DNA from: an uncultured Ectothiorhodospiraceae bacterium
Lineage (GTDB): Bacteria; Pseudomonadota; Gammaproteobacteria; Nitrococcales; Nitrococcaceae
Reading direction: 5' to 3'
NCBI GenBank assembly: GCA_913061005.1
Contig: CAJXSH010000008.1
Location: forward strand, 1 to 64,000
DNA length: 64,000 bases
Both the position numbers and the translations under genes were made by a program. The notes beneath the pieces are model-generated. The model did no database searches. It saw only the letters and a list, made by a program, of their open reading frames with translations, and was not told the DNA's origin. Shown one piece after another: positions 53,043 to 64,000 of this stretch. The number at the start of each line of letters is the position of its first letter. Position 1 is the first letter of the stretch.

Positions 53043-53084
53043 TGATTCCTCCAGGCTGGTTGGATCGCCCGAATGCTCTTCTCG

Positions 53085-53113
53085 ATGTGGAGGCAACAGC
53101 CGACGGGTTCAAG
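53085..53113 (-). promoter_or_regulatory. Candidate heat-shock (sigma-32) promoter of lon
   Basis: On the minus strand CTTGAA, a perfect core of the sigma-32 -35 element, is followed after 15 bases by CTCCACAT, similar to CCCCATNT. It lies 43 bases before the lon ATG. lon is a known heat-shock gene. Confidence 0.5.
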
Positions 53114-53162
53114 TGCCCGGCGATCTGGCCTAGGCTGGCCCGCGGTGACCGGGAGCATTGTC

Positions 53163-54539
53163 ATGAGCCAACCCCCTGCCGATTTGTTGATCCGCAACGC
53201 CGATCGCGTGGCCAACCCCGACGGTGGCCCGGTGCTTGCTCATCACAGCATCGCCATTCGCGATGGCTGGATCGTGGCCATCGAACCGGATGAGGCGTTG
53301 CGCATCGAAGCCACCGAGACGGTGGACGCCCGGGGGCTGGTCCTCATCCCGGGACTGATCAACACCCATGAGCATTTCCTCGAGAGCCTCACCCGGGCCA
53401 TGCCCCAGGCCCAGAACGCGGGGTTGATGGATTGGCTGGCCTGGCATGACCCGATCTGGGCCAAGGCCCGTCCCGAGGATCTGCGCGTCGCCACCCGCCA
53501 GGCGGCGGTGGAACTGATGCGATCGGGCTGTACAACGGTCTTCGACCACAATTATCTCTGGCCGAACAACTGCCGCGCCGAGGATCAGATCGAGGTCATG
53601 GCCGGATTGGGCATGCGCTTTCATGTGGCCCGGGGCTCGGTCTCGCTTGGCCAATCCAACGGTGGCGTTGCCCCGGACGCGGTGGCCGAGGACGAGGCCC
53701 ACATCCTCGCCGACAGCGAGCGGGTGATCCAGCGCTGGCATGACCCGCAACCGGGCAGCATGCAGCAGGTGGCGCTGGCGCCCTGTTCGCCCTACTCGGT
53801 CTCGGCAGCGCTGATGCGCGAGACCGCTGCGCTGGCGCGGCGCCACGGCGTGCGGCTGCATACCCATCTGGCGGAAAGCCGCGAAGAGGTGGCGTTTTGC
53901 CGCAGCCGTCATGGCCACTCGCCGGTGCTGCATGCCGAGGCACTCGATTGGCTGGGCGAGGATGTCTGGTTTGCCCATCTCATCCACCCGGGCAGCAGTG
54001 ACCTCCCCCGCCTTGCCGCAAGCGGCTGCGGGGTGGCCCATTGCCCTTGCTCGAACATGCGGCTGGGTAACGGGATCGCACCCATCGGCGATTACCTCAA
54101 GCACGGCATCGCTGTCGGCCTGGGCGTTGATGGTGGCGCGTCGAACGACGCGGCCCACCTTCTGGCGGAATCACGACAGGCCATGTTGCTGCAGCGTGTC
54201 AACGCCGGCGCCGACGCCATGACCGCCCATCAGGCGCTGGCGCTGGCCACGGTGGGCGGCGCACAGGTGCTGGGGCGTGACGACATCGGCCGTCTCGAGG
54301 TGGGCATGGCCGCAGATATTGCCGGCTTTCGCCTGGACGCCCTGGAGTTGAGCGGGGCGGCGGTGCACGATCCGGTCGGGGCGCTGGTCTTCTGTCCGCC
54401 GCCGCGCGCCGATCTGGTGGTCATCAATGGCCGCCCGACCATTCGCGGCGGCGAGGTCCTGGGAAGCGATCTGGGTGCGCTGGCGGCAGCCCACAACCAG
54501 GCGGCGACCGCGCTGGTGGCCCGTGCCGGTCTCGGCTGA
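53163..54539 (+). CDS. Amidohydrolase, 8-oxoguanine deaminase/AtzB-like
   Basis: A 458-residue metal-dependent deaminase. Zinc ligands are His69 and His71 (NTHEHFLESLTRAMP), His235 with Glu238 in HTHLAES, His272 and Asp323 in GLGVDGGASND. The segments PCSPYSVS and AHCPCSNMRLGNGIAP match 8-oxoguanine/isoguanine deaminases more than guanine deaminase or atrazine hydrolases. GGGAG 9 bases before ATG 53163 supports the start. It may turn oxidised guanine into uric acid for salvage or detoxification. Followed 74 bases later by trpB2. Confidence 0.85.
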   Translation: MSQPPADLLIRNADRVANPDGGPVLAHHSIAIRDGWIVAIEPDEALRIEATETVDARGLVLIPGLINTHEHFLESLTRAMPQAQNAGLMDWLAWHDPIWAKARPEDLRVATRQAAVELMRSGCTTVFDHNYLWPNNCRAEDQIEVMAGLGMRFHVARGSVSLGQSNGGVAPDAVAEDEAHILADSERVIQRWHDPQPGSMQQVALAPCSPYSVSAALMRETAALARRHGVRLHTHLAESREEVAFCRSRHGHSPVLHAEALDWLGEDVWFAHLIHPGSSDLPRLAASGCGVAHCPCSNMRLGNGIAPIGDYLKHGIAVGLGVDGGASNDAAHLLAESRQAMLLQRVNAGADAMTAHQALALATVGGAQVLGRDDIGRLEVGMAADIAGFRLDALELSGAAVHDPVGALVFCPPPRADLVVINGRPTIRGGEVLGSDLGALAAAHNQAATALVARAGLG

Positions 54540-54613: not shown

Positions 54614-55972
54614 ATGAGCGAATCGATCAAGACCGTCCTGCCCGAATCCGAGATCCCGAGACATTGGTACAACATCAACGCCGATCTGCCCGAGCCGATG
54701 GCACCGGTACTGCATCCGGTCACCCATCAGCCGGTGGGCCCTTCGGATCTGGCGCCGCTTTTTCCGCAGGCGGTCATCGAGCAAGAGATGAGTACCGAGC
54801 GGGAGGTCGAGATTCCCGAACCGGTGCGCGATGCCTACCGGCAGTGGCGGCCATCACCGCTCTACCGGGCCCGGCGCCTTGAAAAAGCCCTGGGGACCCC
54901 AGCGCGCATTTACTACAAATACGAAGGCGTCAGTCCGGCGGGCAGTCACAAGCCCAACACCGCGGTGGCGCAGGCGTTCTATAACAAGGCCGAGGGGGTC
55001 AAGCGGATCACCACCGAAACCGGGGCCGGGCAGTGGGGCTCGTCCCTGGCGCTGGCCGGCGCCATGTTCGAGCTCGATATCGAAGTCTTCATGGTCAAGG
55101 TCAGTTTCAATCAAAAGCCCTATCGCCGGGCATTCATGGAGAGCTTTGGGGCGACCTGCGTGGCCAGCCCCAGCAACGTGACCGAGGCCGGCCGTGCCGT
55201 GCTGGCGCAGGACCCGGAGTCCACCGGCAGCCTGGGTATTGCCATCAGCGAAGCGGTCGAGCTGGCCGCCCAGCGGGATGACACCAAATATGCCCTTGGC
55301 AGTGTGCTCAACCATGTCCTGCTGCACCAGACCGTCTCGGGGCTTGAGACCATGCGGCAGCTCGAGCAACTCGATGATTACCCCGACAAGGTCATCGGCT
55401 GTACCGGCGGGGGATCCAACTTTGCCGGCATCGCCTTTCCCTTTCTGGGCCAACGGTTACGCGGCGGGCCGGCCACGGAGTTTATTGCCGTGGAGCCGGC
55501 CTCGTGCCCAACGCTGACCAAGGGCCGTTTTGCCTATGACTGGGGCGATACCAGTCACCTGACGCCGCTGACCAAAATGCACACCCTCGGGTCGGGCTTT
55601 GTCCCACCGGGCTTTCACGCCGGGGGGCTGCGCTACCATGGCATGGCGCCGCAGATCAGCCACCTGACCGACCTGGGATATATCCATCCACGGGCCTACG
55701 GGCAGCTCGAGTGTTTCGACGCCGGACTTACCTTCGCCCGGGCCGAGGGCATCATCCCAGCGCCCGAGGCCAATCATGCGGTCAAGGCGACGATCGACGA
55801 GGCCCTGGCATGCCGGGAATCCGGCGAGTCGAAGGCGCTGTTGTTCAACCTCTGCGGCCATGGCCATTTCGACATGCAGGCCTATACGGATTATCTGGCC
55901 GGCAACCTCAAGGAAGAAGCGCCAAGCGCTGCCGAGCAGTCCATGGCCCTTGCCGGGTTGCCAACCATCTAG
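54614..55972 (+). CDS. TrpB2-type pyridoxal-phosphate enzyme
   Basis: A 452-residue tryptophan synthase beta-like protein of the TrpB2 group. The PLP lysine is Lys113 in AGSHKPNTA, the phosphate loop is [10 protein letters not shown], and the extended N-terminus [17 protein letters not shown] is diagnostic of TrpB2. Such enzymes make tryptophan from indole and serine without a tight alpha partner, or use O-phosphoserine. No trpA or other trp genes are near, so it probably salvages indole. It ends in a CTAG overlap with the convergent small regulator gene. Confidence 0.93.
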
Positions 55973-56283
55973 CGGCGGTCGACAACCGGATCGGCGGCGG
56001 CGCCCAGCGCGATGCTCACCCATGCCGGCAGGCCGTCGGCCAGGCGGTAGTGGACCCGGAAGCGCTCGCGCCGCTCCGCCAGCAGCCCGGCTTCGGCGAG
56101 TTCGCTCAACCGGCGACGGGTATCAGGGACATCCTGCATCAGGGCGATGGCCAGCTCCTCGGCCTCGAGCTCTCCGCCATCGCGAAGGCTCATGAGCACT
56201 TTCAGTCGGCTATCGTCGCTCACCAGACGGTGGAAGTCGGCGCCGCGCAGCGCCATTTCGAGATTCTCGGCCTCCGCACCCAT
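55969..56283 (-). CDS. Small winged-helix (ArsR-like) protein
   Basis: A 104-residue protein. The middle (about residues 18-80) looks like a winged helix: [26 protein letters not shown], then [26 protein letters not shown], with a helix-turn-helix and beta wing. It has no Cys or His cluster of the kind seen in metal-sensing ArsR proteins. ATG 56283 has AGGAG 7 bases upstream; the longer frame would run through tRNA-Glu. It may regulate the neighbouring trpB2 or the amidohydrolase, but nothing in the sequence shows the target. Confidence 0.7.
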
Positions 56284-56355
56284 GACACACTCCTGTCTTT
56301 GTTTGCCGGAGTGTGCCCGGTCATCGATGACAGAAATGTGAACCCGGGGGTGGAA

Positions 56356-56432
56356 TGGCGTCCCCAACGGGATTCGAACCCGTGTCGCCACCTTGAAAGG
56401 GTGGTGTCCTAGGCCGGCTAGACGATGGGGAC
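56356..56432 (-). tRNA. tRNA-Glu (anticodon TTC), CCA encoded
   Basis: The minus strand gives acceptor GTCCCCA/TGGGGAC, discriminator G and an encoded CCA. The anticodon arm CCACC-CTTTCAA-GGTGG reads TTC, and the T-arm GGTTCGAATCC is intact. 77 nt including CCA. Confidence 0.98.
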
Positions 56433-56454
56433 GCTGCCGTTGCGGACGCCGCGA

Positions 56455-56483
56455 ATAATAGGCAGCCCGGGTGACGCCGTCAA
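56455..56483 (-). promoter_or_regulatory. Sigma-70 promoter of tRNA-Glu
   Basis: On the minus strand TTGACG, 17 bases, TATTAT, followed by a GC-rich stretch GCGGCG before the tRNA at 22 bases. The GC-rich discriminator is typical of stringently controlled stable RNA promoters. Confidence 0.8.
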
Positions 56484-56510
56484 GAAAAGCCGACGGGCGC
56501 GGCGCCATGC

Positions 56511-56550: not shown

Positions 56551-57705
56551 GTGAAAGTCAACGAAATCCGGGTCTGGGCGCTTTCCGAATCACTGGGCGG
56601 CGAATGGCGGATCTCGGGCCAGAACTGGAGTCGGATCAACACCGTATTGGTCCGGATCACCACCGAGGACGGGCTCACCGGTGTGGGCGAGACCAATCTT
56701 CGAACCGCGCCAAGGGCCGGACTTGCCACCATCCGCGACCATCTGGCGAGTTCGGTGATCGGCCGGGACAGCCGGGATATTGAGGGCATCTGGTGGTCGA
56801 TGTTCCGCCGTGGCCGGCCCCGCGGTCACACCCGCGGGTTTTACCTCAAGGCGATGAGCGGCATCGACATGGCGCTCTGGGACCTGGACGCGCGGCGGCG
56901 CAATGAGCCTTTGTGGCGCAGCCTGAGAGGCGTGGGCGAGCCGCAGGTACCGGTGTATGCCTCTGCTGTGCGGATTTTTGATCGGGTCGAAGAGGCAGTC
57001 GCCAAGGCAGAGGCGTTCGTTGATGCCGGACACACCACGGTCAAGGTCATGGTGGCCGGCCGGGAACGGGCCTATGACCTGGCAGTGCTTCGTGCCATTC
57101 GCGAACGCTTTGGTGAGTCGGTGGAGCTGTGCATCGATGCCAACTCCAGCTACGAGACCAACGAGGCCGTGCGCTTTGCCAAGGCGGCCGAGGACATTGA
57201 TCTGTTGTTTTTCGAAGAGCCGGTGCCGCCGGACAACCTGCGCGGCTATCGGCGCCTGCGAGCGGTTTCGCATGTGGGCCTGGCCGCCGGCCAGTCCGAG
57301 TTCACGGTCTTCGGCGCCCAGCCGCTGCTCGCCGAAGGACTCATCGACATTTTCCAGCCCAATGCCGGGCGCGTGGGTGGACCCACCGGTGTGCGCTACA
57401 TGCAGCATGCCGCCCTGCCCCACTCGATCCGCTTCTCCGGTCATGTGGGGGCATCATCGGTAGTCAACGGACTGGCGGCGCTGCACCTGGCCGCCGCGGC
57501 ACCAGAACGCACCGCGGCCGAATACTGGGAAGAAGACTCACCCCTTATCGATATTGCCGAAGCCGCCTATCCGCCGGTCACCGATGGGCACGTACAGCTT
57601 GGCGATGCCCCCGGCCTGGGGGTGGAGCTGGATGAAAGCCGGCTGGACGCCATGGCCATCGAATCGGTCACCATCGACGCCAATTCGCAGACCTACTCGC
57701 AGTAG
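56551..57705 (+). CDS. Enolase-superfamily (mandelate racemase-like) protein with altered active site
   Basis: A 384-residue protein: N-terminal capping domain and C-terminal modified TIM barrel. Metal ligands Asp196 (CIDANSS) and Glu222 (FFEEPVP) are present. The third ligand segment reads AAGQSEF, with Gln248 in the usual Glu place and Glu250 nearby. The strand-2 Lys motif reads VKVMV (Lys165, Met167) where two lysines (KxK) are usual, and the Asp of the His-Asp dyad appears as Asn271 (FQPNAGRVGG) with His298 kept. It is probably an acid-sugar dehydratase/racemase relative, but catalysis must differ or use fewer residues. GGGGGAG before GTG 56551 fixes the start. Convergent with the tct-linked genes. 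Confidence 0.82.
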   Translation: MKVNEIRVWALSESLGGEWRISGQNWSRINTVLVRITTEDGLTGVGETNLRTAPRAGLATIRDHLASSVIGRDSRDIEGIWWSMFRRGRPRGHTRGFYLKAMSGIDMALWDLDARRRNEPLWRSLRGVGEPQVPVYASAVRIFDRVEEAVAKAEAFVDAGHTTVKVMVAGRERAYDLAVLRAIRERFGESVELCIDANSSYETNEAVRFAKAAEDIDLLFFEEPVPPDNLRGYRRLRAVSHVGLAAGQSEFTVFGAQPLLAEGLIDIFQPNAGRVGGPTGVRYMQHAALPHSIRFSGHVGASSVVNGLAALHLAAAAPERTAAEYWEEDSPLIDIAEAAYPPVTDGHVQLGDAPGLGVELDESRLDAMAIESVTIDANSQTYSQ

Positions 57706-57723: not shown

Positions 57724-58776
57724 TCAGCAGCCGTCTCGCCAACCCACCCAGGCGTCGGCAACCCATCCGGCAAGGACATTGACCACGATAATGCGCACCG
57801 TCTGAAACATGACCACCTCGGGTACGCCGAGGCCCAGGGCCGCCGAGGTGATCACCATCTCGGCGATTCCACCGGGCGCACCGGCGAGCGCGAGGGTTGC
57901 GCTGTCAACACCCGGCGCCAGCATGCGGCCGGCAGCCAGAATAGCCGTAATGATCGCTGCCGAGGTCAGCAATGACACCGCAAGCCCCACTGCCAGCAGC
58001 CGCGGCAGCCGACGGATGTCCTCACCCCGAAAGCGCGCCCCCAGCGCCAGTCCGATACTGATCTGCGCGCCGATAAAAAGACTGCTCGGAACCGTCGCCC
58101 CGGGAAAACCCAGCATGGTGTCCAGCAATGAAATGGCAAGCGCAGCGACCACGAATGCATTCTTGATACCCAGCCGGCTCAACCCCAGCCCGGCGAACCA
58201 GCCCAGCACGAGAATGAGCAGCAGTGCGTGATCCCACTGACCCTGGCCAAGCTCATAACCCAGGGTTGGATCGGCGTGGGGAACCAGCCAGGCCAGCGCC
58301 GGGGGGATGACCAGCACGACCGAGCTCACCCGCATCGCCTGGATGAGGGCGATTGTCGTACTCGCCCCTTGTCGGCCATCGCCGAGAAACGCCATCTCGG
58401 CCACCCCCCCAGGCAGATTGGCGAGCAACGCCGTGCGACGGTCGAGCCGCCCCCAGCGCACGAGCAACTCGGAGGCAAAGAGCGCAATCGCGATACTGCC
58501 CAGCGCCGCGGCGATCATGAACGGCAGCGTCTGTAGCAGGCTGACAAGGATACCCGCCGACAGGGTGTGACCGACCGTGGTACCGACCACCACCTGGGCC
58601 GCCCGCCGTATCCAGCGGCTCTCGCCAATGCCCTGACCGGCCAGACCCGCCGCCGTGGACACCAGCATCGGACCGATGATCCACGGCAGCGGGAGACCGA
58701 ACCGCTTGCCCGTCGCCCCGGCCAGAATGGCCAGGGCGATTACGATGGGCAGCCTTATCGAGGCCTTAGCGAGCAA
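57724..58776 (-). CDS. AbrB-family membrane protein (duplicated, transporter-like)
   Basis: About 350 residues with roughly 10 helices in two homologous halves, each with a Gly-Pro-Gly-rich hairpin: NLPGGVAEMAFLGDG in the first and AGAPGGIAEMVITSAALG in the second. This duplication defines the AbrB membrane family (not the DNA-binding AbrB). Members are found beside organic-acid catabolic genes and are thought to transport anions, but few are characterised. The TTG at 58776 overlaps the PrpD-like stop by 11 bases; the exact start is uncertain. Confidence 0.8.
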   Translation of the reverse strand: MLAKASIRLPIVIALAILAGATGKRFGLPLPWIIGPMLVSTAAGLAGQGIGESRWIRRAAQVVVGTTVGHTLSAGILVSLLQTLPFMIAAALGSIAIALFASELLVRWGRLDRRTALLANLPGGVAEMAFLGDGRQGASTTIALIQAMRVSSVVLVIPPALAWLVPHADPTLGYELGQGQWDHALLLILVLGWFAGLGLSRLGIKNAFVVAALAISLLDTMLGFPGATVPSSLFIGAQISIGLALGARFRGEDIRRLPRLLAVGLAVSLLTSAAIITAILAAGRMLAPGVDSATLALAGAPGGIAEMVITSAALGLGVPEVVMFQTVRIIVVNVLAGWVADAWVGWRDGC

Positions 58777-60217
58777 GCAGCTGAGTCAGTTCGGTGATGG
58801 AGGTGACATCCTCCAGATGACGGACCTGCTCGACCAGCGCCTCGGTACGGCTCGGGTCCCAGCCGGCGAACTCAGCGCAGCCACGGAACTTATCGGCCGC
58901 TTCGTCATAGCTCATCGGGTTGGCGGGACTGCCCTTGCCGAAATCCGCCCGCCCGGAGACGGTCCGGCCATCCTTGAGATGGATATCAATGATGGTGGTC
59001 ATCTTGTCATAGCCGGCTGCCTCCGCCTCGGGATGGACCCCGAAATGGATTTTGCCGATCATCGCCTGCACATCCTCGCGGTTGACCACCTCGTCGGTGA
59101 ATTCCGGCAGACCACCACGGCGCTCGAGCAGAAGAATCGCCATGCAGAACTCCATCGAGAACTTGGCCTGGAGCTCGTTGACCGGGCGGTGATGGATCAG
59201 CGCGTTGGGCATGTTGTGGTTGGTCCCGACATCCACATGATCGACCTCTTCGGCCTTGATGTCGTGCTCGAGGATCAACTCAAGCATGCGCGTCATGCCA
59301 GGGTGGGTCAGCGAACCGGAAGGGTTGGGTTTGATCGACACACCCGGATCGACAAATGTCCACGGCTCGCCCAGCTTTCCGGCGATCGCCTCGAGATCAT
59401 AGCCACCCCCATGGGCCTGGAAAAAGCCACGTGGCGATTCCAGAATCCGGTCGGTAGCCGTCCAGCCAGCTCGGGCAAAGTCAACGGCGACCACCCCTGA
59501 CTCGGAAGACCGCCCGGCATGGAAAGGCTTGGTCATGGTGCCAAAGTTCTCGCGCAACCCGGCCGACTGACTTGCCGCAATGGCAAGCGCCCGCAGCGTG
59601 GTGTCGGTATCCAGTCGCTGCAGCCGGGCCGCCGCGGCGGCGGCCGCAAAGGTGCCGCATGTCGCCGTGGCGTGAAAACCGTGCTGGTAATGCCGCGGCG
59701 AGATGGCCTCGGCGATCTTGGTCTCGACCTCAACACCAAGATGGTAGGCCAGCATGAAGTCTTTACCACTGCCATTGCGCTGCTCGGCAATGGCCAGGGC
59801 CGCCGGCAGGCAGGGGGCGGTGGGGTGGGTTAACAACCCGTAGACTCGATCCGGCCCGACGGCGAGCTGGGTGTCATCGAAATCGTCGGCATGGATGCCG
59901 ACTCCGTTGGCAAAGGCGGCAAACCGCGCCGGCGCCCGCATGCGGGTACCGATCAGCGTCGCTGCGCCCTCGGGCCCGGTCACGCCCTGGGCATGCAGAT
60001 AGTCCTGAACGATGCGGCCACTCTCGGCCACAGACCCGGACAGGGCCAGACCAAAACCATCCAGAATGGATTTTTTGCCCAGATCGATCAGCCGATCCGG
60101 CAGGGCATCATAAGCTGTCTCAAGCACGAACCCGGCCACTTCGCGGGTAAGCCCCTCGCCTTTTTTCGAATGGATATCAGGCGTGTAGTGCTTGATATCG
60201 CCTTGCAGCTCGGACAT
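58766..60217 (-). CDS. MmgE/PrpD family protein (2-methylcitrate dehydratase-like)
   Basis: A 483-residue protein of the MmgE/PrpD fold, which includes 2-methylcitrate dehydratase, cis-aconitate decarboxylase and relatives. Typical parts are AGFVLETAYDALPDRLIDLGKKSILDGFG (quoted as LGKKSILDGFGLALSG), GVGIHADDFDDTQ and KPFHAGRSSESGVVA, with the conserved Lys-Pro-Phe-His near residue 230. No prpB, prpC or acn partner is adjacent, so methylcitrate is not assured; a tricarboxylate imported by TctABC is plausible. AGGAGA precedes the ATG. 30 bases after tctA. Confidence 0.87.
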   Translation of the reverse strand: MSELQGDIKHYTPDIHSKKGEGLTREVAGFVLETAYDALPDRLIDLGKKSILDGFGLALSGSVAESGRIVQDYLHAQGVTGPEGAATLIGTRMRAPARFAAFANGVGIHADDFDDTQLAVGPDRVYGLLTHPTAPCLPAALAIAEQRNGSGKDFMLAYHLGVEVETKIAEAISPRHYQHGFHATATCGTFAAAAAAARLQRLDTDTTLRALAIAASQSAGLRENFGTMTKPFHAGRSSESGVVAVDFARAGWTATDRILESPRGFFQAHGGGYDLEAIAGKLGEPWTFVDPGVSIKPNPSGSLTHPGMTRMLELILEHDIKAEEVDHVDVGTNHNMPNALIHHRPVNELQAKFSMEFCMAILLLERRGGLPEFTDEVVNREDVQAMIGKIHFGVHPEAEAAGYDKMTTIIDIHLKDGRTVSGRADFGKGSPANPMSYDEAADKFRGCAEFAGWDPSRTEALVEQVRHLEDVTSITELTQLLAR

Positions 60218-60247: not shown

Positions 60248-61738
60248 TTATGCCTGCGTGGCCCGTGCCCGACGCGACAAAAGCTGCCTGATCGGGGCGA
60301 CAAAGACGCTGAGAAGCGCAAGCCCAAAGAATGTCATGGCGATCGGACGACCCAGAAAGCCGGTCCACTGCTGGTCGAAGATGATCATCGCCTGTGCCAG
60401 CGAGTTTTCGGTGAGCTCGCCAAGGACCAATCCCATGATGATGGGGGCTGGGGCGAATCCGTAACGCTTGAGTACAAAGCCCACCAACCCGGCGGCCAGC
60501 ATGACGTAGACATCCGTCATGGACTGCTCCAGCCCATAGGCACCGACAAAGCACAGCGTGAACACCGTTGGCCACAGCAACGCCCGGGGCACCTGCGTGA
60601 TCCGCGAAAACACCTTTGCCCCCACCAGGCCGAACCCAAGAAAGAGGAAATTGGCCAACAGCATCGAAAAGAAAATGCCATAGAGCAGCGCGGGCTGTTG
60701 CTCGAAAAGATACGGACCGGGACGCAACCCCTGTACCTGCAGCCCACCGAGAATGACCGCAGCGGTGGCACTGCCCGGAATGCCAAGGGCGAGCGTTGGC
60801 ACCAGCGATCCGCCTGTGGCGGCATTGTTGGCGGCCTCCGGACCAGCGATACCCTCGATGGAGCCCTCGCCGAATTCCTCCGGGTTTTTCGACCAGCGCT
60901 TCGACTCGTTGTAGCCGATCATCGCGGCCATGGTGCTGCCCTCGGCGGGCAGGATGCCGATGAACGTGCCGATGCCGCATGAACGCATCACCGTGTACTT
61001 GACCCGTCGAAAGTCAGCCCAGCTTGGCAGCTTGAGCGCCGACACGCCGATCGCCTCGACATGCTGACGCAGCTTGGCGGCCTGTGACAGCAGCTCGGTG
61101 ATCGCGAAAAGCCCGATCAGCACGGGAATGAAATGGATGCCCTCATAGAGCTGGGGCAACCCGAAGGTGAATCGCTCCACACCGGTGGTCAGATCCACGC
61201 CGATGGTGGCGATGAGCAACCCGAGACAGCCACCGATGAGGTTTTTGACCGCGCCCTTGCCGCTGATGGACGAGAGCATCGACAGCCCGAAAACCGCCAG
61301 CGCAAAATACTCGGCCGGGCCGAAGCTGTACGCGACCTGTGCGAGCAACGGCGCCGCCACCAGCAACACCAGCACCGAAAACGTCCCGCCGGCTACGGAT
61401 GAGACCGCCGCCATGCCCAGGGCTCGCCCCGCTTCACCCCGCTGTGCGAGCGGGTAGCCGTCGAAGGCGGTGGCGGCCGCCGGCGGCGCGCCCGGGGCGT
61501 TGATCAGTATCGCGGTAATCGAGCCACCGAACGTCCCCGCACAATAGAGCGAGGCCAGCAGCGCGATGGCGGGGATGGGCTCGAGGTAGAGCGAAAAGGG
61601 CAACAAAAGCGCCGTTGCCATCGACGACGACAACCCGGGCAGGGCACCGACGAGGACCCCGCCAATGGTGCCGACGAAGATCAGTCCCAGAATGTAGGGA
61701 TCGGTAATGACCTGAAGTGCAACTTCCAAACCGGGCAT
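60248..61738 (-). CDS. tctA: Tripartite tricarboxylate transporter, large membrane subunit
   Basis: A 496-residue TctA protein with about 12 helices. Family motifs: GVLVGALPGLSSSMATALLLP, the duplicated GTFIGILPAEGSTMAAMIGY, and NAPGAPPAAATAFDGYPLAQRGEAGRAL. TctA is the pore of the sodium-driven tricarboxylate system. Its start lies 3 bases after tctB ends. Confidence 0.96.
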   Translation of the reverse strand: MPGLEVALQVITDPYILGLIFVGTIGGVLVGALPGLSSSMATALLLPFSLYLEPIPAIALLASLYCAGTFGGSITAILINAPGAPPAAATAFDGYPLAQRGEAGRALGMAAVSSVAGGTFSVLVLLVAAPLLAQVAYSFGPAEYFALAVFGLSMLSSISGKGAVKNLIGGCLGLLIATIGVDLTTGVERFTFGLPQLYEGIHFIPVLIGLFAITELLSQAAKLRQHVEAIGVSALKLPSWADFRRVKYTVMRSCGIGTFIGILPAEGSTMAAMIGYNESKRWSKNPEEFGEGSIEGIAGPEAANNAATGGSLVPTLALGIPGSATAAVILGGLQVQGLRPGPYLFEQQPALLYGIFFSMLLANFLFLGFGLVGAKVFSRITQVPRALLWPTVFTLCFVGAYGLEQSMTDVYVMLAAGLVGFVLKRYGFAPAPIIMGLVLGELTENSLAQAMIIFDQQWTGFLGRPIAMTFFGLALLSVFVAPIRQLLSRRARATQA

Positions 61739-61741
61739 GAC

Positions 61742-62236
61742 TCAGCCTCCAGCGCCAATCAGCGACATCACAACGCCGCGCGGGAAGCGGACCTGCAACC
61801 CGATGGCAAAAACCAGATAAATCGCCGCCGGCAATCCGATTGCCAGCGATGCAATACGCGACCACTGCCGCTCCCCCCACAACCAGGTCAGCGTCAGGGC
61901 CAGCAAGCCGACGGTCAGCAGTGTCCCCAGCGGCTTGACGAGAAACACCGCAAGGGTAATGACCGCGGCGGTGGTGAACACCGAGCCCGGAACACTACCC
62001 AGCGACTCGGCAGACCGCTTCAGGCCGCTGACAATGAGGATGACGCTAAGCAGTGTGATCGTGGCAAGCACCAACCGCGGAAAGAAGGTCGCCGGAATGT
62101 TCTGCGAGAGCATTGCCGGGACCGAATCAAAAGTGGTGGTGACATAAAATGCCACCGCGCAGAAGACAATCATCACGAACCCGACATAGACATCGTGATG
62201 AAGCCCGCGTACCGAGCGACCGGACGGCTCGATCAT
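61742..62236 (-). CDS. tctB: Tripartite tricarboxylate transporter, small membrane subunit
   Basis: A 164-residue TctB protein with four helices (about residues 17-35, 53-70, 86-120 and 132-150). It contains the family pattern of a Phe-Pro turn (IPATFFPRLVL) and the final VRFPRGVVM. ATG 62236 has GGGGGAG upstream; the longer start is not supported. Sequence conservation is low, and the call depends strongly on its place between tctC and tctA. Confidence 0.88.
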   Translation of the reverse strand: MIEPSGRSVRGLHHDVYVGFVMIVFCAVAFYVTTTFDSVPAMLSQNIPATFFPRLVLATITLLSVILIVSGLKRSAESLGSVPGSVFTTAAVITLAVFLVKPLGTLLTVGLLALTLTWLWGERQWSRIASLAIGLPAAIYLVFAIGLQVRFPRGVVMSLIGAGG

Positions 62237-62323
62237 GAGCACTCCCCCCGTTAGAAAAGGTGGCCTCAACAATCCGGGCCGACGCCTTGCCGGCCCGGAT
62301 CAGCGCAAAACGCAGAGGCGTGC

Positions 62324-63307
62324 TTACTCTTCGACCATGCCCAGATCGCGCATGGCTTTCTCCGCCGCCGCATACAGATCACGGATCTGCTCATTCCAGG
62401 TATCGGCATCACCCACGGAGTTGCCATCGAGACCGGTACCGGTGAGGTAGGCCTGATAGGCGGAGTGCTCCATCCCCTCGAGCATGGCCTCCTCGAGGAT
62501 CTCCAGACGCTCTTCGGGAACACCATCAAGGGCGACGATGCCGCGGACCGTCGAGAAGGTCACGTCATAGCCAAGCTCAACGGTGGTCGGCACATCCGGG
62601 AGCGCTTCCATACGCTCGTCCGCCATCACGGCGAGCGCCCGGAAATCACCCCCCTCGAGCTGATCGATGGCCTCGGTGATGTTCAGCCCCGAGGCGTCGA
62701 TGTTGCCGCCCATGAGGTTGGTGACGATCTCGCCGCCGCCGGAGAACGGCACCACGCTGATCTGGGTGTCAGCGTCGTCGGCAAGCGTCGCACCGGCCAC
62801 GTGATCAATGCCCCCGATCTGCGTTGTACCCCATTTGATCGGAGTCTCACGCCCCGCCTCGATGAGGTCATCCAGCGTCTCGAACTCACTGTCGGCGCGC
62901 ACCATGACCACCACGGGATCGTCGGTGGTGCGAACCACACCCACCAGATCATCGATCTCGAGCGGTCCCTGGTTGCGGGCGATGGCGAACAGATGGGTCG
63001 GCGTAATCGCCATGAGGGTGTACCCGTCACGGGGCTGCTCGTTGACGTAATTCATGGCCAGCACACCGCCGCCGCCGGTCCGGGGGACGATACGCATGTC
63101 CTCGCCAATCGCGCGCCGGGTACCGATGAGCAACGTCCTCGCGGTGGTGTCGGTCCCCCCGCCGGGCGAAGCGTGGGTGACGATATCAACGGCACGGCTG
63201 GGGAAGTCATCCTGGGCCAGGGCGCTACCACCGCCCAGGCCGACGAGACCCACAGCCACAACCGATGCAAGGACGGATCGTTTCATTGTCGATGTCACAG
63301 AAGACAT
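62324..63307 (-). CDS. tctC: Tripartite tricarboxylate transporter, periplasmic substrate-binding protein (Bug family)
   Basis: A 327-residue binding protein. The signal peptide ends in GGGSALAQDD (about residue 31). The mature part starts FPSRAVDIVTHASPGGGTDTTAR, quoted in part; Bug motifs VVPRTGGGG-like IVPRTGGGGVLAMNYV and the ligand loop WGTTQIGGIDHVAGA are present. Asp in ASPGGGTD marks the carboxylate-binding loop. GGAGGAG precedes the ATG. It delivers a carboxylate to TctAB; the ligand cannot be read from the sequence. Confidence 0.95.
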   Translation of the reverse strand: MSSVTSTMKRSVLASVVAVGLVGLGGGSALAQDDFPSRAVDIVTHASPGGGTDTTARTLLIGTRRAIGEDMRIVPRTGGGGVLAMNYVNEQPRDGYTLMAITPTHLFAIARNQGPLEIDDLVGVVRTTDDPVVVMVRADSEFETLDDLIEAGRETPIKWGTTQIGGIDHVAGATLADDADTQISVVPFSGGGEIVTNLMGGNIDASGLNITEAIDQLEGGDFRALAVMADERMEALPDVPTTVELGYDVTFSTVRGIVALDGVPEERLEILEEAMLEGMEHSAYQAYLTGTGLDGNSVGDADTWNEQIRDLYAAAEKAMRDLGMVEE

Positions 63308-63379: not shown

Positions 63380-64000
63380 TCAGGAGCCGGTATCCCGGGC
63401 CCCTTCCCTGTTCTTTTCTCCGGCAGGCTGGGCGAACAACATCCGCCGCATTCCCGCCTGGACATGTTGATGAAGCACGTTGAATGCCTGCAGCGGCTGA
63501 CCGATGACAATGGCGTCGATGATCTCGCGATGCTCACGATTGGACTGGCGCAGGCTCCCCTCCTGTACCAGACCACTGGCGCGATAGAGGTGCAGCCGTG
63601 CCACGGTGTTTTGATAGTTACGGACCAGCTCCTCGTTGCCGGTGTGCTCGAGAATGGCCGCATGAAAGCGCAGATTGAGGCTGTAGTAATCGCGCGTCGA
63701 ACCGGTATTGACCTCGTTTTCCATGGCGTCGTGCAGCTCACGCAGTTCCTCCGCGAGCGCGGGGTTGGGGTGCTGGGCGGCGACAAAACCGGCGTACCCG
63801 AAAAGCCCTGCCCGCAACTCGTAGAGTTGCTGTGCCTGCTCGAGACTGATCTCGCGGACATAGGCTCCCCGGTAGGGCACCATCTCGAGCACACCGCGCT
63901 CGGCGAGCCCCCGACACGCCTCCCGAATGGGGCCGCGACTTACCTTGAACCGGTTGGCGAGATCGACTTCGTTGATGCGATCACCCATTCGCAGATCGCC
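63380..64000 (-). CDS. GntR-family regulator with FCD domain, N-terminus cut by window
   Basis: At least 206 residues; the frame stays open to the window edge (AICE before MGDRINE), so about 25 N-terminal residues are missing. The winged helix ends with EVDLANRFKVSRGPIREACRGLAERGVLEMVPYRGAYV, quoted here as VSRGPIREACRGLAERG. The FCD effector domain has conserved metal-binding residues in LNLRFHAAILEHTGNEEL and the second His in REHREIIDAI. It sits upstream of tctCBA and probably represses the cluster until a carboxylate ligand binds. Confidence 0.92.
   Translation of the reverse strand, partial: GDLRMGDRINEVDLANRFKVSRGPIREACRGLAERGVLEMVPYRGAYVREISLEQAQQLYELRAGLFGYAGFVAAQHPNPALAEELRELHDAMENEVNTGSTRDYYSLNLRFHAAILEHTGNEELVRNYQNTVARLHLYRASGLVQEGSLRQSNREHREIIDAIVIGQPLQAFNVLHQHVQAGMRRMLFAQPAGEKNREGARDTGS

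Follow-up and report, generated by a model that had tools for sequence, protein, structure and literature searches.

An enolase-superfamily protein of the MR type, encoded in the genome of an uncultured Ectothiorhodospiraceae bacterium, has lost the second Lys of the KxK motif (here M167), the Asp of the Asp-His dyad (N271), and the Glu that serves as third metal ligand (Q248). This residue pattern is conserved in its orthologues, recurs in a second clade of the superfamily, and is linked to TctA, the permease of tripartite tricarboxylate transporters (TTT); the recurrence and the transporter linkage are new here. With a probability of roughly one half, the protein would be a functional, divergent MR-type enzyme acting on a hydroxy-di- or tricarboxylate (tartrate-, malate-, or substituted-malonate-like) delivered by the adjacent TTT, a substrate and a reaction that we infer from the residues and the neighbouring genes.

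The gene lies near the end of the window, i.e., the whole stretch of 64,000 nucleotides that was analysed (Table 1). Its GTG codon is at the position matched by the starts of the orthologues and is closely preceded by the Shine-Dalgarno-like GGGGGAG. The N-terminal capping domain and the C-terminal barrel domain required of the enolase superfamily are both present, the Pfam families MR_MLE_N (8e-19) and MR_MLE_C (5e-53) matching above the gathering score. The nearest solved relatives are MR-type proteins without assigned function (3ozm, 3h12, and 3bjs; E ~1e-42), and no NCBIfam equivalog reaches its cut-off; the best match is ManD with 169 bits vs 550, and the galactonate, talarate/galactarate, arabinonate, and rhamnonate dehydratase models are likewise below theirs. 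On sequence grounds the annotation as an MR-type protein can be considered safe, and homology gives no specific function. A structure model based on three sequences was of low quality, with a mean pLDDT of 37.9.

Table 1. Positions in the window of the enolase-superfamily gene, of the codons for its catalytic-site residues, and of the neighbouring genes.
Feature	Position	Strand	Basis
Enolase-superfamily (MR type) gene, 384 aa, GTG start	56551..57705	+	Pfam, HMMER, orthologue starts
K165-V166-M167, KxK motif with second Lys replaced by Met	57043..57051	+	alignments, orthologues, survey
D196 (first metal ligand position), A197, N198 (= MR N197)	57136..57144	+	alignments, survey
E222, second metal ligand position	57214..57216	+	alignments, orthologues, survey
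Q248, replacing Glu of third metal ligand	57292..57294	+	alignments, orthologues, survey
N271, replacing dyad Asp	57361..57363	+	alignments, orthologues, survey
H298, dyad His kept; absent from second Q/N clade	57442..57444	+	alignments, tree set
E324 (= MR E317), kept	57520..57522	+	orthologues, tree set
AbrB-duplication membrane protein, convergent with enolase gene	57724..58776	-	Pfam PF05145, TIGR03082
MmgE/PrpD family protein	58766..60217	-	68% to PrpD of L156 Q/N cluster
TctA permease, tripartite tricarboxylate transporter	60248..61738	-	66-68% to TctA beside L160 Q/N gene
TctB	61742..62272	-	
TctC solute-binding protein	62324..63307	-	
GntR/FCD regulator, heads tct operon	63380..63988	-	

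The register of the motif residues was taken from HMMER alignments to the solved relatives 3ozm, 3h12, 3bjs, 2ovl, and 5olc, which contain no gaps around D196, E222, 248, and 271, and in which Q248 takes the place of the invariant Glu in the 'GE' motif and N271 that of the Asp in 'QPD/QAD/EPD'. The protein shares with MR the two-domain fold, the motif register, and the spacing: D196-E222-Q248-N271-H298 are separated by 26, 26, 23, and 27 positions, exactly as MR D195-E221-E247-D270-H297, with a constant offset of +1. K165, M167, D196, E222, Q248, N271, and H298 thus correspond to MR K164, K166, D195, E221, E247, D270, and H297. A register shift, with the canonical residues lying elsewhere, is ruled out by the ungapped motif stretches and the identical spacing. 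The three substitutions had been assigned to these same positions in the initial annotation, with which the gap-free alignments agree; the residues that it listed as retained (K165, D196, E222, and H298) are confirmed by the alignments, the spacing, and the orthologues.

In functional terms, and with the roles of MR K164, K166, N197, E247, H297, and E317 as described in PMC9835602, the base on one face, the second Lys of KxK, is replaced by M167 in all three orthologues, and the Asp-His dyad that provides the base on the other face is reduced to H298 next to N271. Two of the three predicted metal-ligand positions, which in the superfamily lie where barrel strands end, keep their acidic residues (D196 and E222) and the third is Gln in all three orthologues, while the carboxylate-activating residues K164, N197, and E317 of MR have their equivalents in K165, N198, and E324. 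The suggestion that proton abstraction had been lost on one face does not go far enough: M167 ends the base of one face and N271 disables the dyad partner of the other. MR K166M is a laboratory variant, whose inhibitor affinity is lowered ~2,800-fold, and a published study of the MR D270N mutant is cited in the same paper (PMC9835602); the window protein naturally combines both types of change and adds the replacement of Glu by Gln at a metal position.

The orthologues, at 90% (L003/L004, an Ectothiorhodospiraceae metagenome-assembled genome) and 78% (G008/L027, another genus of the same family), are identical to the window protein at all motif residues, and a sequencing error is ruled out because three genomes carry the same residues at every listed site. 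The values of dN (~0.07 and 0.17) and dS (~1.3, near saturation), obtained by the method of Nei and Gojobori, correspond to dN/dS of ~0.06 and 0.13, which indicates purifying selection on the gene and speaks against the decay of an unused one. Of 128 homologues, 124 have Glu at position 248 and 4 have Gln, namely the three orthologues and one distant protein (L128); Met167 occurs only in the three orthologues, the others having mostly Lys or Arg. At position 271, Asp is found in 107 and Asn in 9, and several of the Asn271 proteins are otherwise canonical; Asn271 alone is therefore a recurrent variant, and Gln248 with loss of Lys167 is not. In D-glucarate dehydratase the third metal ligand is Asn, not Glu, and both KxK and the Asp-His dyad are kept; an amide ligand would thus not be unprecedented. 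The window protein scores 24 bits against the D-glucarate dehydratase model (cut-off 829).

The nearest canonical relatives found form the L023/L043 group, some members of which have Asn271; unlike the window clade, this group keeps Lys167 and Glu248. L023, L031, and L032 (in G699, G885, and G810) carry tandem MR-type genes, the first with Asn271 and the second with Asp271, both copies keeping KxK and Glu248; they offer a natural pair for probing the role of Asn271.

L128 led to plasmid-encoded relatives in Ponticoccus, Burkholderia, Neorhizobium, Paracoccus, and the haloarchaeon Halostagnicola, and to others from additional genomes, which together constitute a second clade (clade 2). All 13 clade-2 representatives in the tree have Gln248 and Asn271, position 167 is never Lys, and His298 is found in none, a loss that goes beyond those of the window type. 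Across both clades Gln248 and Asn271 are present in 16/16 proteins (hereafter Q/N proteins), again never with Lys167; K165, D196, E222, and E324 never vary, and N198 is present in 15/16. In a tree built leaving out columns 167, 248, 271, and 298, the window clade groups with the canonical L023/L043 group and clade 2 lies elsewhere. A tree constrained to unite all the Q/N proteins is worse by 45 log units (AU p = 0.011, in a test without L138), and the signature columns that the window clade has in common with the L023/L043 group number 11, vs 4 with clade 2 (P90, R91, Q248, and N271). A single origin is disfavoured by these three results, with a doubt left by long branches; two origins of the pattern are favoured by the sequences, with caution because the stem of the window clade is long (1.5 changes per column). 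At the edge of clade 2 there is an intermediate form, the protein of L138 (4896-6101, on an Agrobacterium plasmid), with Thr167, Glu248, Asn271, and no dyad His.

TctA is encoded within 9 kb at 10 of 14 non-redundant Q/N loci, one of them in a haloarchaeon, vs 0 of 41 Glu248 loci (Fisher p = 3e-8; p = 6e-7 for clade 2 alone). The Q/N loci had been picked by residue or by sequence and not by neighbourhood, both sets are mostly from Proteobacteria, and the controls exclude the Glu248 paralogues inside the Q/N loci L154, L156, and L159. In the L023/L043 group, no TctA was found within 9 kb in the examined flanks of L029, L035, L036, and L141. A TTT-linked group can be defined here by Gln248, Asn271, absence of Lys167, and TctA within 9 kb; it comprises the proteins of the window, L003, and L027 and most of clade 2. 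Since the importer usually stands beside the genes of both clades and much the same replacements recur, the change is probably functional. The initial annotation asked whether the tct/PrpD neighbourhood is common to homologues with this residue set; TctA is shared by most of them and PrpD/AbrB by some. Its proposal of a putative new reaction specificity gains support from the conservation in orthologues, the purifying selection, and the recurrence in clade 2 next to a transporter of this kind.

This linkage bears on the reading in which the protein would be a conventional acid-sugar dehydratase or epimerase with H298 as its single base, the substitutions being neutral tuning. H298 is indeed unaltered, Asn271 is also seen in several relatives whose KxK and Glu248 are unchanged, and sugar ABC transporters are found beside near relatives; however, none of the 66 canonical sequences in the tree set has Gln248, the NCBIfam dehydratase and epimerase models all score far below their cut-offs, and the transporter is a TTT and not a sugar ABC system, all of which makes this explanation distinctly improbable.

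In the window and in L003 the enolase gene converges on an operon with the order GntR-TctC-TctB-TctA-MmgE/PrpD-AbrB, and in G008 a TctC gene adjoins the enolase gene on the same strand, with TctABC nearby. An additional SDR dehydrogenase gene (L003 10222-10971) separates PrpD and AbrB in L003; in the window these two genes overlap instead. Upstream of the enolase gene, the window encodes an 8-oxoguanine deaminase (53073-54539, +) and a TrpB-like PLP enzyme (54614-55972, +; TIGR01415), both above the respective cut-off and both conserved in L003. A tRNA-Glu(ttc) gene (56356-56432, -) is located between an ArsR-like gene and the enolase gene and is overrun by a long open reading frame (55969-56508, -), whose true start is therefore probably further in. 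In a search of 14 genomes of this genus only 2 had the enolase gene, and the enolase-tct block may therefore represent an island at tRNA-Glu.

The neighbouring genes point to di- and tricarboxylates as the probable substrate class. The closest solved proteins to the window PrpD are iminodisuccinate epimerase and cis-aconitate decarboxylase. With the L003 copies as queries, the PrpD of this family shows 68% identity to that of L156 and ~70% to those of L198-L200, compared with 25-42% to most others, and its TctA shows 66-68% to the L160-linked TctA vs 32-43% at other Q/N loci. The PrpD orthologues of L198-L200 are on plasmids, in clusters without an annotated enolase-superfamily gene, and the PrpD pathway can therefore run without one. 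At L202, in Roseomonas, a 'hypothetical protein' beside a TctA homologue was considered as an enolase homologue and proved not to be one, and the viral contigs that were scanned yielded nothing useful.

Tartrate genes appear in two clade-2 operons. The gene order in L154 is TctA, three MmgE/PrpD, D-tartrate dehydratase-like, tartrate dehydrogenase, Q/N gene, and AbrB, and L156 reads PrpD, a relative of isopropylmalate dehydrogenase, tartrate dehydrogenase, Q/N gene, and D-tartrate dehydratase; in both, the start of the Q/N gene overlaps the stop of the tartrate dehydrogenase gene. The dehydrogenase was recognised by TIGR02089 (above cut-off) and the dehydratase by 2dw7 (1e-186), an entry which, together with 2dw6 and 1tzz (PDB name Bll6730 protein), represents the D-tartrate dehydratase TarD. 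TarD belongs to the same superfamily and its gene, besides adjoining these two Q/N genes, is present elsewhere in the window genome: on another contig (C11, L203 8363-14504) there is an orthologue (64%) preceded by a tartrate dehydrogenase gene. A TRAP-type transporter, called from reading the sequences and not from a profile search, follows it, and with this block the organism probably uses tartrate. The window protein itself has neither the TarD-like sequence nor the canonical motif of a D-tartrate dehydratase: the TarD relatives compared here keep KxK and the third-ligand Glu, unlike the window protein, which is only ~23% identical to the TarD of its own genome, a separate gene, and TarD entries are absent from its best 60 PDB matches. 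Searches of an open-access library yielded neither a Gln as third ligand nor a tartrate dehydratase associated with a TTT.

In L154 and L156 the operon that contains the Q/N gene also encodes a canonical paralogue, D-tartrate dehydratase. Combined with the disrupted KxK motif and the missing dyad Asp and carboxylate metal ligand, this would suit a pseudoenzyme that keeps the fold without catalysis and serves as a substrate-binding, regulatory, or partner subunit. This is nevertheless improbable, because the activating residues and the predicted metal ligands D196 and E222 are conserved as described above, Gln248 and Asn271 are fixed in two clades instead of drifting, purifying selection is strong, and a canonical paralogue is absent within 9 kb of the Q/N gene at most loci.

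As a functional MR-type enzyme, the protein would hold a divalent metal by D196, E222, and the neutral Q248, and K165, N198, and E324 would bind one carboxylate of the substrate and activate it, as their equivalents do in MR. Q248 and N271 would remove two negative charges and M167 one positive charge; the loss of a carboxylate ligand, of the dyad Asp, and of the Lys may leave a more positive metal site with room for a second substrate carboxylate, so that a substrate bearing one would suit these changes. The single-base acid/base step, a dehydration or an epimerisation, would be performed by K165, possibly with H298 in the window clade; K165 is the likeliest acid/base group because it is the one basic catalytic-set residue that both clades retain. 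Against this reading, efficient proton abstraction without Lys167 and with an altered Asp271 is not obvious; in addition, the tartrate genes of the window genome are on another contig, four Q/N loci are without TctA, and the plasmid PrpD clusters of L198-L200 have no annotated enolase-superfamily gene.

A serious rival, since clade 2 is without any of the usual alpha-carbon bases (Lys167, Asp271, and His298), is a reaction in which the enolate is formed without removal of an alpha-proton, by release of CO2 or by cleavage of a C-C bond in a substrate of the malonate or beta-hydroxyacid type, and is stabilised by the metal and the K165/N198/E324 half-site. The carboxylate-activating residues are kept in both clades, and two clade-2 genes, in L133 and L140, sit with an arylmalonate decarboxylase gene (NF052327, above cut-off). 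This is consistent with a survey of arylmalonate decarboxylase neighbourhoods that reports MR/MLE genes in 61% and frequent TTT genes, in passages that do not mention the active-site residues (PMC4996985). Arylmalonate decarboxylase, on the other hand, decarboxylates without a partner, and the window clade, on a separate branch from L133 and L140, has none nearby; a search for this family that covered just two genomes gave no match and carries no weight. His298 is also kept in the window clade, and all known reactions of the superfamily are said to involve alpha-proton abstraction (PMC6946804), so that the proton-independent reaction, too, is rather doubtful. A broader and equally tentative proposal is that two branches independently changed Glu to Gln and Asp to Asn and dropped the second Lys for a base-atypical enolate reaction on imported di- or tricarboxylates, possibly without initial alpha-proton abstraction.

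The enolase superfamily is a standard model of substrates diversifying around one constant partial reaction, the abstraction of an alpha-proton adjacent to a carboxylate. Despite the repeated loss of the usual bases and of one metal-ligand carboxylate, the group described here has been conserved, and in bacteria as well as in an archaeon it is associated with a carboxylate importer; if the proposed readings are true, it would either stretch the alpha-proton rule to cover an unusual single-base chemistry or be an exception to it; moreover, the neighbouring genes make the substrate class, i.e., tartrate-, malate-, and malonate-like acids, directly testable.
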